A stretch of 64,000 bases of DNA from Rozella allomycis CSF55. Lineage: Eukaryota > Rozellomycota. This document shows positions 4,333-64,000 of this stretch, in pieces. Positions within the stretch are counted from its first letter, which is position 1. Every line of letters begins with the position of its first letter. The position numbers and the translations under genes were made by a program. The stretch covers positions 79,603 to 143,602 of the forward strand of contig KE560848.1 in NCBI GenBank assembly GCA_000442015.1. The letters run 5' to 3'. The notes beneath the pieces were generated by a model. The model was not told the DNA's origin. It was given only the letters and a program-made list of their open reading frames with translations, and did not search any database.

Positions 4333-6143
4333 ATGTTGAAGCCGATAGTAGTCTTCTTCTTGATAATATCAGTGATATCAAATTTTCCTGTTGACAATGA
4401 AATCGAATTTGGACCTGGAATCGGGCATCTTGTAGATAGATCGTCAGATCTCGTCGGGTACTTTGGGCTCATATCGAATGAGTGCCCTAACTGCCACGTT
4501 TATTGGGAGCCCCCTTCATACAACACAAAGAGCTTGATTCTCGTACCTTTATTTATAGAAAATGTGTGGGTTTTAATCACTACGGACACCTTTATAAGCC
4601 AGCCCGAACAACACCGACAGTTTGACGTATACGATAGCACAAATGTTTTAGAGAAACATCCTGGTCGCGTTAAAGTATTTAATATTATGACGATGTTAAG
4701 TAGGATATTTGCGTCTACCTAGGAATCAATCTATTGGATTGTAAAATGAATAAAGTAGATGTAGAAAAACAGGACAATGAAAATGCTAGCTGGATTAATT
4801 TGTGCTTTAATGCAAGATGGGCAGCATTAGACCAAAAATTCACTGGTCTTTCTTATCATCACGTGGAATTGATGAAATTTGAGTTATATATTGGAAGGTT
4901 GTTCATGATAAATATCATAGAACTTGGAAAATTAACCCAATATGAATCCAGTGTTCCCATTACAAGAAGCTCGATTATTAAATACGAAATTGATCCATCA
5001 AACTCATTTCACAATCCCAACCACAATATTAATAATCAAGCACGGGATATTGAGAGTGCTGCTAATTTGCCTTTTGATCATTTTGGTAAAGATAGCGGCA
5101 CGTTAGTTCTTTGTTATTTGAGATTTATAAAAGGTCTTTCTCCTTCTCAAATATCAGCAATCTTCGGCTTGTCACAAATGTATGTCATTTCAAGAATAAA
5201 TGATTTTAAACGGCGTTCGACAAGGCGCCAGGATAAATCTTTTGAAACCAATTTTAATGATGCCCTAAGATTGCTTGAAAGTTTGTCAAGCATTCCAAAG
5301 CCAATGTTTTCTTCTTCTTGTAAAAATACATTTCAGGATATTGAAATGATTCCTTTAGTGATTTGGTTAACAAAAGAGTTAAAATATGAAGAGGGCGAAG
5401 TGGCGATATTGACAGGGATCCCAAAATGTTTCATCAAGTTAATAACCCAAGAATCTACCAATGAAGCTGCTAATCAAACGCAAATTCAACATTTCCATGA
5501 ATGGTTACTGAAAAGAGCACCGAAAGTCGATGTGCCGATCAAACAATTAGAAAACGATGCCAATATTTACGCTGATCTAGAAAAGGCAATAGAAGAATTA
5601 AAAATAGAATTGGGCGGTCTTAAATTTGTTATATATTACTTGAAATATGTTAAGCGTTTGCGCCATGATCAAATCGCTAAATTTGCAAAAATAGAACAAA
5701 GAATATCACGGGACACTTGCCATAGATTAAGGAAACGAAATAATAAAGACTTTGAAACTTTAAAGAAGAGTTTAAGAAAGGTGAAATTCGCTCTTGAAAA
5801 CGTCAAAATCCCGTTCCCCACAGTTTATTATACAGATGCCTTCAAAAATGTTAGTGAAAGAGATTTTTTGATAGTTTGGTTATCAGAAATGAAGAAACTC
5901 AAGTCAAATGACATTGAGACATTACTTGATGTTCCTGCAGACATTGTAGATTTCATTGTTGAAGAATATAAGAATGAGAACCAAATCTTTTCCATTGATG
6001 AAACGCGGATCAATTTTTTTGAGACTTGGTTGAACAAGCGCGCCGAAGATTTATCCATAGTCATCAATAACGGCATGAACGATCCCGAACTCGATGCTCT
6101 TGAAGAAATGATATTCCTTGTGGATGATGTGGATGAAATCTAA
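4333..6143 (+). CDS. Inactive Ulp1-like (C48) protease fold fused to a duplicated helix-turn-helix module
   Basis: The frame from ATG 4333 meets a 23-nt GT-AG intron (4700-4722) that restores the downstream frame and joins the halves of a Ulp1-like core. The sequence ILVPLFIENVWVLITTD aligns with the catalytic HW strand (His replaced by Val). VYDS keeps the Asp, and EKQ keeps the Gln. The six-residue spacing to the nucleophile lands on ASW instead of DCG (Cys replaced by Ser). The rest (about 400 residues) is two related blocks of about 180 residues. Each has two helix-turn-helix-like segments (for example KGLSPSQISAIFGLSQMYV and KRLRHDQIAKFAKIEQRI) and ends in a W-L-x-K-R-A motif. The first residues (MLKPIVVFFLIISVIS) could be a signal peptide or a cryptic membrane segment. 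Function unknown; binding of a SUMO-like protein and of DNA is inference. Confidence 0.6.
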
Positions 6144-32004: not shown

Positions 32005-33478
32005 ATGAGCTCCCTTCAAGATTATCTACAGAAAAACTATAAGCAGTCGAAAAAGAAAAAAAATTCTTCAAAGAATGTGAAGATTATTGATAACGACGCG
32101 GATTTTATCAGTGAAAATCAAACTGAAAGCCATGATGATGGGGAATTAGTGAGCATCGCAATGCAGAGAGCTGAGCTCAGCGTTGATAATACAGCAAAGT
32201 TTAAGCCTGCTTTTACAAGTTCAAATTTAAAGAAATGGGATAACTTAAATGATTTAACAATTGACAGCAATACTTATAAATCACCTTGGGAAAAAGAACA
32301 AATGGCTCCAAGACAATCTAGACATGATTCGGATAACGATATATCTCCTCCAAGAAGAAATAGACATGACTCTGATAATGATATGTCTCCTCCAAGAAGG
32401 AATAGACATGACTCTGATAATCCAAGAAGAAATAGACATGACTCTGTTAATGATATATCTCCTCCAAGAAGAAATAGACATGACTCTGATAATGATATGT
32501 CTCCGCAAAGAAGAACTAGGCATGACTCTGATAATGATATGTCTCCTCCAAGAAGAAATAGACATGACTCTGATAATGATATGTCTCCGCAAAGAAGAAC
32601 TAGGCATGACTCTGATAATGATATGTCTCCTCCAAGAAGAAATAGACATGACTCTGATAATGATATGTCTCCGCAAAGAAGAACTAGGCATGACTCTGAT
32701 AATGATATGTCTCCTCCAAGAAGAAATAGACATGACTCTGATAATGATATGTCTCCGCAAAGAAGAACTAGGCATGACTCTGATAATGATATGTCTCCTC
32801 CAAGAAGAAATAGACATGACTCTGATAATGATATGTCTCCGCAAAGAAGAACTAGGCATGACTCTGATAATGATATGTCTCCTCCAAGAAGAACTAGGCA
32901 TGACTCTGATAATGGGGAAAGTAAACACAATGCATCATCATCCCTCAAAAAGTATAATTCTGAAACTGCTAACACTATTGTAAGAGATCATACAGGCAAG
33001 AAAATTGATGTTGCAGATTCCCGCTCAAAAGCCGATATTGCAGACGAAAGGCATGATAAAGTCAAACTGATCAGCTACGGAATGAAACAATTACAAGAAA
33101 AAAGAGATAAGATTGATTTGCTTGAGAAAATGAAAAGCGCTAAATTTTCGAGGTAATGTTTACACTTTAATTTACATAGATATGCCGACGACGTTGAATT
33201 AAACCAGAACCTGAAAGAAAAAACTCATTGGGATGATCCCTCTAGAACATGGTTAAAGGTACGAACAATGAATTTTAAATTTTTAGTCAACTAACAAGAA
33301 AGTTATCAAACAGGAGTATCAAGGCCCTTTTCCACCAAATCGTTTCAACATCAAACCCGGACATAAATGGGATGGTATTGATCGCTCTAATGGCTTTGAG
33401 AAGAAATATTTTGACCAACTATACATTAACAAAACCAGGGAGCATGAGGCTTACAAAATGGGATCGGTGGACATGTAG
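32005..33478 (+). CDS. BUD13: Pre-mRNA retention and splicing factor BUD13
   Basis: Three exons, with introns 33153-33179 and 33259-33286. The protein starts [19 protein letters not shown], passes through a long repeat of [13 protein letters not shown] type units, and ends with the conserved BUD13 C terminus ([39 protein letters not shown]). BUD13 is part of the RES complex that promotes splicing and nuclear retention of unspliced RNA. Vertebrate BUD13 has similar RHDSxxxSPPRR repeats, so the array supports the call. In a genome of tiny introns, splicing factors of this type are of interest. Confidence 0.95.
32310..32915 (+). repeat. Tandem repeat within BUD13, 42-bp units alternating in two versions
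   Basis: About 14 units of 42 bp encode a 14-residue motif. In the middle, type A ([14 protein letters not shown]) alternates strictly with type B ([14 protein letters not shown]), giving an 84-bp higher-order period. One unit near 32420 is shortened to 30 bp. Because the period is a multiple of three, other frames on both strands stay open through the array and give spurious ORFs. Near-identical neighbouring units suggest recent expansion. Confidence 0.95.
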
Positions 33479-55323: not shown

Positions 55324-55479
55324 CAAGATATTTGCGGCTGAGTTTGTAGTTGCAGGGCGTGGTGGGTATGCGTGATCAGGTAATGTCAATTATGGAAATA
55401 TTTGAGATTTTAAAAAGGAAAAGTAAAGCAGTTGCGCTGGTTTAGAAAATGAGGTTAATAATGAAAAATTGTGAAAAAT

Positions 55480-55550
55480 GCCTTCAGGGAGGATTGAACA
55501 CCCGACCTCATGTTTACAAGACATGCGCTCTACCACTGAGCTATGAAGGC
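55480..55550 (-). tRNA. tRNA-Thr (anticodon UGU)
   Basis: The 71-nt minus-strand sequence folds as a cloverleaf. The acceptor stem is GCCTTCA with TGAAGGC, and the D arm is GCTCAGTGGTAGAGC (box A). The anticodon arm is CATGT-CTTGTAA-ACATG with anticodon TGT, and the T arm contains the TTCAATC loop (box B). No intron. The T stem has one U-U mismatch. It lies between the two small membrane-protein genes. Confidence 0.93.
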
Positions 55551-57249: not shown

Positions 57250-58079
57250 TTATTGTGTTAAAATTGCGAGTGGGCTCGTCATAATAACACGAGAACAACT
57301 ATTGCCTCTGAATTTTCGCAGTTTTTCTACAGCCATGCGATATCGATTTATGTTCCTGGTTTGGAGGTGCCGGTGGCCCTTCCCATTTAGAAACGTCGTA
57401 ACCAAGTTCTTTATATTTTCATACTTGTTGTCTTTAGCTAGATGCCAAAAGTAACCATAAAACATTGCAACCTCTTGTGTCGTACCAGGGATTCTCATCC
57501 CAATTCATAGAGGGATTCTCATCCCACCTTCCTTAGAATAATTATCAAAGAGAGGAGTCATAACTCTCAAAGGATCTCTTAATACTGACGGATCTCTATT
57601 CTGATACTAATTATAGAAAGGGATACTATTTATAGAAAAGACCCACATATAAAACTCTAAGGAGATATCAATAAATAGAACGGGGGATAATCCATTCTCA
57701 ATCGACATCTGTTTTTACTTTTTATCTTACGATTTATTATCCAATTTACGAGGATTAAGGTTCTATGAGCGCATGGAGCGACATCTTGGATAACTCTTTC
57801 CGAAACCTCAAATTGGCACTTGGCGTATTCGTTGTAAATGACAAGCTTTAGGGCTGGTACGTCCCGCATTTCAACAATTTCAAGTAGAAACAATTCAAAT
57901 TGAGTAGCAGTTTTGATTTCTTTTTGAAGAAACTCAGTCAATCGAATGTCATAATTTTTTCCTCTTGGCTTGGGATACTCTATCCATTTGTCGTAGAATT
58001 GAGTTTTCTCGGTTTTATCAGTTTGAATTGAAGGAAAAATATAGCATATTAGTATTAATTTCAACCAATCAAATTTCAT
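57250..58079 (-). pseudogene. Secreted-protein gene interrupted by a solo LTR
   Basis: Minus-strand ORF from 58079 with a signal peptide (MKFDWLKLILICYIFPSIQT) and a globular part (FDKWIEYPKPRGKNY-like text, then EFLQKEIKTATQFELFLLEI). It reads SERVIQD at the border of a 306-bp LTR, after which translation goes on within the LTR and stops. Beyond the LTR the minus strand resumes with EVAMFYGYFWHLAKDNKYEN and ends at 57250 after a basic tail. Removing the LTR and one copy of the 5-bp duplication joins the two parts in one frame. I recognise no family. As it stands the gene would make a chimeric, truncated protein. Confidence 0.75.
57478..57783 (+). mobile_element. Solo LTR of an LTR retrotransposon, 5-bp target-site duplication
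   Basis: 306 bp starting TGTCGTACC and ending GGAGCGACA (TG...CA ends with 5-bp terminal inversion), flanked on both sides by TCTTG (57473-57477 and 57784-57788). It is more than 90 percent identical in reverse complement to 63332-63661. In this orientation it has two near-copies of a 24-bp U3-like unit, a CATATAAAA TATA box near 57645 and AATAAA near 57671. With no internal region attached, it is a solo LTR left by recombination. It sits antisense inside the secreted-protein gene. Confidence 0.88.
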
Positions 58080-63249: not shown

Positions 63250-63331
63250 TTTAAATCACCTACTTCCCTGGCGAAGTTTCGTTATTTCTGTTCCCCATGT
63301 TTTGGTTCTCTTTTTCCTTCGGCGTTGTTTG

Positions 63332-63661
63332 TGTCGCTCCATGCGCTCATAGAACCTTAATCCTCGTAAATTGGATAGTAAATCGTAAGATAAAAAGTAA
63401 AAAACAGATGTCGATTGAGAATGGATTATCTCCGTTCTATTTATTGATATCTCCTCAGAGTTTTATATGTGGGTCTTTTCTATAAATAGTATCCCTTTCT
63501 ATAATTAGTATCAGAATAGAGATCCGTCAGGATTAAGAGATCCTTTGAGAGTTATAACTCCTCTCTTTGATAATTATTCTAAGGAAGGTGGGATGAGAAT
63601 CCCTCTATGAATTGGGATGAGAATCCCTCTATGAATTGGGATGAGAATCCCTGGTACGACA
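63332..63661 (-). mobile_element. LTR, probably the 3' LTR of a retrotransposon running off the window
   Basis: 330 bp, TGTCG...CGACA ends, in inverse orientation to the solo LTR at 57478-57783. It is longer by one 24-bp unit (three copies of the GATGAGAATCCCTCTATGAATTGG type instead of two). On the minus strand it is preceded at once by GGAAGGGGGTAA (63662-63673), a polypurine tract of the kind found just upstream of a 3' LTR. The outer flank is GTTTG, and no matching duplication occurs at its inner side. The body of the element should therefore lie to the right, beyond 64000. Confidence 0.8.
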
Positions 63662-63673
63662 TTACCCCCTTCC
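63662..63673 (-). other. Polypurine tract next to LTR
   Basis: Minus-strand GGAAGGGGGTAA ends exactly at the first base of the LTR, as expected of the primer site for plus-strand DNA synthesis in LTR retrotransposons. Confidence 0.65.
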
Positions 63674-63783
63674 AGTAGCTGGAGGCGTTTAAAATAATGA
63701 AATTTCCTATCTGTTTCGATAGTTCCATTCTTGAAAATGAAGATTATCCCGGAGGTAAAGTACCATTTCTTGTACGTATATAT

Positions 63784-64000
63784 GATAATAATGTGTAGCC
63801 AAGCATCATACGGAGTGATTACTTGATTATTATGTGTATTTTGAATGTTAGTGGATATAATAATGTGTAAGCAAGTATCACGCAGAGTGATCACTTGATT
63901 ATTATATGGGTGTTCATGTGGATATAATAATGTGCATGGCGAGTATCATGCGGAATGGACACTCGATTATTATATGTGATTATTCGCAAGGATAATAATG
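63784..64000 (-). repeat. Tandem array of 67-70-bp hairpin-forming units
   Basis: Units start at 63784, 63854, 63921 and 63991 (the last is cut by the window end). Each has an outer stem (TATAATAAT with ATTATTATA) and an inner stem: CAAGT/ACTTG in unit 2, CAAG/CTTG in unit 1, CGAGT/ACTCG in unit 3. The inner stem carries a paired A-to-G / T-to-C change that keeps pairing. The loop (GCAGA, ACGGA, GCGGA) is similar. The array lies inside the presumed retrotransposon, upstream of the polypurine tract in its 3' untranslated part. No convincing protein frame is seen. Confidence 0.85.

Follow-up and report, generated by a model that had tools for sequence, protein, structure and literature searches.

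The window analysed here is a stretch of 64,000 nucleotides from Rozella allomycis CSF55 (contig KE560848.1, positions 79,603-143,602, forward strand), a fungus whose lineage split off close to the base of its kingdom. At the right end of the window, beside a long terminal repeat (LTR), lies an array of three complete hairpin units and the start of a fourth. The units open with ATAATAAT at 63785, 63857, 63924 and 63992, and the other arm of their outer stem, ATTATTAT, is found at 63826, 63898 and 63966. A first-pass annotation of this DNA had counted the same three units plus the beginning of another, which is borne out; its spacings of 70, 67 and 70 bp are corrected here to 72, 67 and 68 bp. 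Tandem Repeats Finder called an array for the last two window units only. A run of 13,786 Ns begins at the base after 64000 and blocks extension of the array in place. The features of the array and its element are as follows, the complete units being supported by unit sequence and by profile, folding and covariance-model searches.

63332-63661, minus strand: 3′ LTR of 330 bp, TGTCG...CGACA; genomic copies start at about 63332 and the ends were read directly
63589-63661, minus strand: 24-bp tandem repeat of the LTR with a GGGAT/ATCCC palindrome, present in three copies here and in two in the solo LTR
63662-63673, minus strand: polypurine tract abutting the 3′ LTR, seen beside it as TTACCCCCTTCC on the plus strand
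63670-63684, minus strand: short hairpin by the polypurine tract with a CCAG/CTGG core, recurring beside the tract in other LTR families
63785-63836, minus strand: hairpin unit A, nearest the LTR
63857-63908, minus strand: hairpin unit B
63924-63976, minus strand: hairpin unit C, with inner stem CGAGT/ACTCG
63992-64000, minus strand: unit D, start only, the remainder masked by N beyond the window
57478-57783, plus strand: solo LTR of the same family in opposite orientation, with TCTTG on either side

As TTACCCCCTTCC on the plus strand is the complement of a polypurine tract, the sense of the element is the minus strand and 63332-63661 is its 3′ LTR. The array therefore falls in the 3′ untranslated region (UTR) of the element. 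The host element is most likely an LTR retrotransposon of the Ty3/gypsy type with a chromodomain; it has TG...CA LTR ends, a polypurine tract beside the 3′ LTR and, around the solo LTR, a perfect 5-bp target-site duplication (TCTTG, seen in one copy). The solo LTR is a full copy with one 24-bp repeat fewer than the other LTR of the window, to which it is 97.7% identical over 298 aligned columns. Minus-strand frames lie on both sides of it (57250-57498 and 57657-58079), and its insertion may have broken up a host gene. The palindrome of the 24-bp tandem repeat reads GGGATGAGAATCCC, and the LTR as a whole folds barely better than shuffles (z -1.67). Other repeated palindromes occur in related Rozella LTR families at locus L027 (1200-1650) and locus L011 (4200-4400) (AATGTGATCATTGATCACATT; CCTTAATAGCTTTATTAAGG), and elements of this group may tend to carry repeated hairpins.

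Copies were sought in the window's own genome (9.97 Mb, 213 contigs). The stretch 63250-63790, which is mostly LTR, gave 51 matches, the last 301 bases of the window 16, a two-unit stretch 12 and a diverged array 6. Unit-bearing matches merge into about 14 genomic places, a count to be read as at least that many. The LTR, the tract and the units stand on a single stretch in the window, L015 and L011, and a unit shares an N-free stretch with an integrase or chromodomain piece, in the expected order, in L023 and L020. The LTR, the array and integrase are never together in one unbroken copy, and the placement between the last gene and the 3′ LTR is supported piecewise by these two kinds of stretch. 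The first-pass annotation had likewise put the array in the 3′ region of an LTR element, in agreement with the adjoining tract and with the integrase and chromodomain pieces upstream of units in other copies. In L011, pieces of rve (26.7 bits, cut-off 32.6), H2C2 (36.2 bits, cut-off 25.5) and a chromodomain (24.7 bits, cut-off 25.1) lie to the right of the array on the minus strand. As they are separated by Ns and follow each other in sense as rve, H2C2 and chromodomain (the usual order being H2C2, rve, chromodomain), they may derive from more than one element. All 6 of 6 protein matches of the chromodomain piece were named Rozella allomycis CSF55. Among the fetched loci no reverse transcriptase (RT) was linked to the array's element family, the window element's own pol being hidden by N. 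The 5′ LTR of the window element is likewise located within the N run or past it.

The polypurine tract and its adjoining hairpin were found at 10 genomic places, the window included, three of which carry units: the window (= L029), L031 and L034. Five of the seven places without units run into N within 77 bases of the tract. These are uninformative on units, because they break off before the distance at which unit A begins in the window (95 bases). The informative places, L033 (287 bases) and L036 (178 bases), belong to other LTR families, and no unit was found there. L032 gave one weak unit match (E 0.81).

A profile search of the fetched loci returned 29 matches. Twenty-three, from 12 loci, were kept at E < 1e-4; the six left out were three cut-off units and three weak matches. 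The units were aligned on the sense strand from their sequence, with no fit to a structure. Four types, A, B, C and D, were distinguished among them besides mixed forms, and types A, B and C recur across separate loci, mostly in the same order, with Ns interrupting most arrays. The order A-B-C-D is visible in L011, where D is cut, and the window, L014 and L017 are consistent with it. Exceptions are L016 (B, C and a mixed third unit) and the L011 array at 4676, which has no separate A. Unit D is complete in L023 (998-1055) and L021 (4415-4472) and partial in L011 and L014. Some 400 bases separate the three-unit array of L016 (4320-4510) from a MULE transposase piece at 4904-5440 (PF10551, 25.5 bits, cut-off 27.6), and the two are probably nested elements.

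Each unit has a near-constant AU outer stem and an inner stem that covaries and contains one bulged base. A bulge of 7-9 nt on the 3′ side of the outer stem mostly ends in URCAC, and the small apical loop is usually UCCG plus one base. Single unpaired letters are conserved, namely the loop G (22 of 23) and the bulge T (22/22), C (21/22) and A (21/22). Across the three complete window units the 8-bp outer stem is invariant, as had been claimed. The inner arms read CAAGC/ACTTG in unit A, which makes a G-U pair on the minus strand, CAAGT/ACTTG in unit B and CGAGT/ACTCG in unit C; the two-sided change between B and C is the one on which the first-pass annotation had built its case. The inner stem of type D is strongly diverged, yet complementary letters are retained. 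Several hairpins of about 55 nt in series could also be taken to give rise to small RNAs that would silence the element, but the stems are short (about 10 + 10 pairs, with the 7-9 nt bulge between them) and this origin seems very improbable.

For the covariation tests, the structure was read from the three window units and applied to all 23, in which 86.9% of 444 cells are paired. The covariation score was 0.141, against 0.097 ± 0.009 in shuffles, none of 500 reaching it, and the number of cells with a two-sided change (12) was likewise reached by none of 500. Pairs showing a two-sided change (4) and further pair types (14) were not in excess of shuffles, 220 and 297 of 500 respectively having as many. 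Because the units are related, a tree-aware null was added, in which the inferred substitutions were relocated at random along a FastTree tree in 1000 simulations. Under this null the inner stem scored 0.268 against 0.113 ± 0.044 (2/1000 as high), with 12 double changes (39/1000 as high), and the whole structure scored 0.142 (23/1000 as high). When the register of the bulged base was left free, the inner stem scored 0.308 (3/1000) with 14 double changes (63/1000). The outer stem scored 0.016 (957/1000 as high); it hardly varies, and its low score is therefore uninformative on covariation. The clearest covarying pair is AU in 14 units, GC in 4, GU in 3 and unpaired in 2. The covariation signal is thus real, but few pairs carry it.

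A check of this kind on genomic copies was what the first-pass annotation had proposed, and it places the inner stem above the tree-aware null. As far as testable, the copies do not lack an excess of compensatory changes, nor do they appear to form a satellite unrelated to a transcript, the two outcomes that the annotation had named as fatal to its proposal.

On the sense strand, the 341-nt stretch between the LTR edge and the end of the window forms all three hairpins (z -2.63), whereas the opposite strand pairs outer arms of different units with each other (z -1.02). Taken singly, the window units A, B and C have z-scores of -1.31, -4.31 and -3.28, and five units outside the window range from -3.71 to +0.80. 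A covariance model made 26 unit placements on the sense strand (3 of them the window units recounted in L009), and found no other match below E 0.1 in 232,767 bases. G-U pairs outnumber A-C pairs by 21 to 15 with a fixed register and, with a free register, by 20 to 13 over the whole structure and 18 to 6 in the inner stem. As many of these cases are inherited together, the counts do not decide the strand. Of the earlier claim of selection on a fold, in RNA or in cruciform DNA, the covariation of the inner stem is borne out, and the G-U to A-C counts do not separate RNA from DNA.

The Drosophila gypsy element contains an insulator, and the units could similarly be dyad-symmetric DNA sites at which a dimeric protein would bind and influence transcription or chromatin. 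A near-constant outer stem is as expected of a binding site, the counts above single out neither strand, and the three window units also fold under DNA parameters (z -1.61, -5.04 and -2.69). However, the inner stem swaps A-U for G-C on both arms, where a binding site should hold its sequence, and the bulges are one-sided. We consider such DNA sites distinctly unlikely.

In the window, one sense frame runs for 95 codons without a stop, a length reached by 9/500 shuffles, which would favour a reading frame encoding a repeated peptide. Its translation contains no methionine, unit C is in a different frame from A and B, and stops occur in several other copies. Substitutions are spread evenly across codon positions (34/40/35, with 16 indel letters, in 11 matching pieces), in line with the earlier claim that there is no constraint at the protein level. 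The repeated peptide was rejected, and is barely credible.

The array has no Rfam match at gathering score, consistent with the annotation's statement that no described family fits. A known RNA family was likewise rejected, the sole Rfam overlap, with unit A, being at chance level (E 8.6). At gathering score, Rfam matched the window solely at a tRNA gene, 55479-55550 on the minus strand. Among the open-licence papers that searches on Rozella retrotransposons, or on LTR-element stem-loops with compensatory change, brought up, no title describes the array.

Our tentative preference is that the array is a multi-site cis-acting RNA of the element's genomic RNA, used in export or packaging. We infer from its position, sense, recurrence and covariation that the fold may act at the level of RNA. 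Each unit would fold as a hairpin on the element's RNA, and the array would thereby display its bulges and loops to a protein. The likeliest such protein is an export factor or Gag, whose binding would lead to export and packaging of the full-length genomic RNA. In support, the polypurine tract and the TG...CA LTR place the array in the 3′ region, with integrase zinc-binding, rve and chromodomain pieces to its right in L011 and units beside integrase or chromodomain pieces on the N-free stretches of L023 and L020. Further support comes from the covariation of the inner stem, the separate folding of the units on the sense strand, the conserved single unpaired letters and the lack of codon-position bias.

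A number of observations weigh against this preference. The structure used for covariation was taken from 3 of the 23 units themselves, and RNAalifold on the alignment retained five inner pairs only. By energy, two D units fold poorly (z -1.06 and +0.80) and the L011 array does no better than shuffles (z 0.52); the L016 array folds well (z -4.66), but its pairing runs between units. The G-U and A-C counts leave the strand undecided, and in the outer stem they stand at 2 against 7 with a free register. Units are near three of the seven integrase or chromodomain places, and no unit came out at E < 1e-4 in the stretches fetched for the other four, all of which contain Ns; one integrase or chromodomain place, L024, gave a weak unit match (E 0.25). 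The unit of L022 is accompanied by a gag, protease and RT piece whose strand is the reverse of the unit's sense, and which may therefore belong to a different element. Lastly, the apical loop as a whole is the least conserved part of the unit (mean identity 65.9%, compared with 71.2% for the whole bulge, 76.6% for the inner stem and 82.1% for the outer stem), which speaks against a strict protein site.

The low conservation of the loop not only weakens the case for an export or packaging RNA but also strengthens its strongest rival, in which the array is a palindrome-prone tandem repeat of a type often met in LTR-element 3′ UTRs. Its arms would owe their likeness to template switching while DNA is replicated or reverse-transcribed, and not to selection on RNA. 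Template switching is able to create and maintain stems and to yield compensatory changes (available text of PMC8794818), and family-specific tandem-repeat arrays are frequent between pol and the 3′ LTR in plant Retand elements (available text of PMC11963269). Moreover, LTRs of the array's family and of related families contain repeated palindromes, and the loop is conserved less than the stems. However, the one-sided 7-9 nt bulge persists in 22 of 23 units (letters present) rather than being corrected away, and G-U intermediates occur at the main covarying pair (3/23). We regard template switching as a serious possibility, if on balance a doubtful one.

Should the array be an export or packaging RNA, an early-branching fungal LTR lineage might have evolved its own multi-site signal by tandem duplication of a hairpin, independently of retroviral transport elements, with the copies showing a similar bulge and loop to one protein. 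As a whole this scenario is conceivable but rather unlikely. What is new here is the covarying hairpin unit; tandem repeats in retrotransposon 3′ UTRs are already known. Accounts of 3′ UTR repeats in LTR elements usually portray them as hypervariable and as giving rise to satellites. A covarying repeated unit offers a definite example, open to testing, of repeats in which an RNA fold may be under selection.

Elsewhere in the window, a 42-bp tandem repeat of 14.5 copies at 32319-32914 encodes a 14-residue repeat that may resemble the repeats of the splicing factor Bud13. Between 38325 and 54895, three long, closely spaced frames on one strand (3962, 362 and 1111 aa) look coiled-coil-like and are perhaps one giant gene.

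Among known systems, the constitutive transport element of Mason-Pfizer monkey virus and the direct repeats of Rous sarcoma virus sit near the 3′ end of these simple retroelements. Both are small cis-acting RNAs, structured or repeated, according to the available text of PMC3856414. By its place the Rozella array would work much as such transport elements do; a likeness in sequence was sought through Rfam only and gave no match. IAP elements have a multi-hairpin RNA transport element. In the musD LTR retrotransposon, too, the available text of PMC5767303 describes a transport element that is a multi-hairpin export RNA. In contrast to musD and IAP, so far as musD is covered there, the Rozella array repeats similar hairpins. 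The packaging and dimerisation region of Ty1 is reportedly a structured cis-acting packaging RNA of a fungal LTR element; it lies at the 5′ end, whereas the Rozella array lies at the 3′ end.

Plant Retand and Ogre elements carry tandem-repeat arrays in the region from pol to the 3′ LTR (available text of PMC11963269 and PMC7004042). The word "hairpin" has 0 occurrences in PMC11963269 and PMC7004042. The Rozella element resembles these plant elements, on the available accounts, in bearing short, family-specific tandem repeats between pol and the 3′ LTR, and has at least three of them, the number set for such an array. In those same accounts the Retand and Ogre arrays vary in length, monomer and sequence, whereas the diverged units of Rozella keep their fold and, for the most part, their order.
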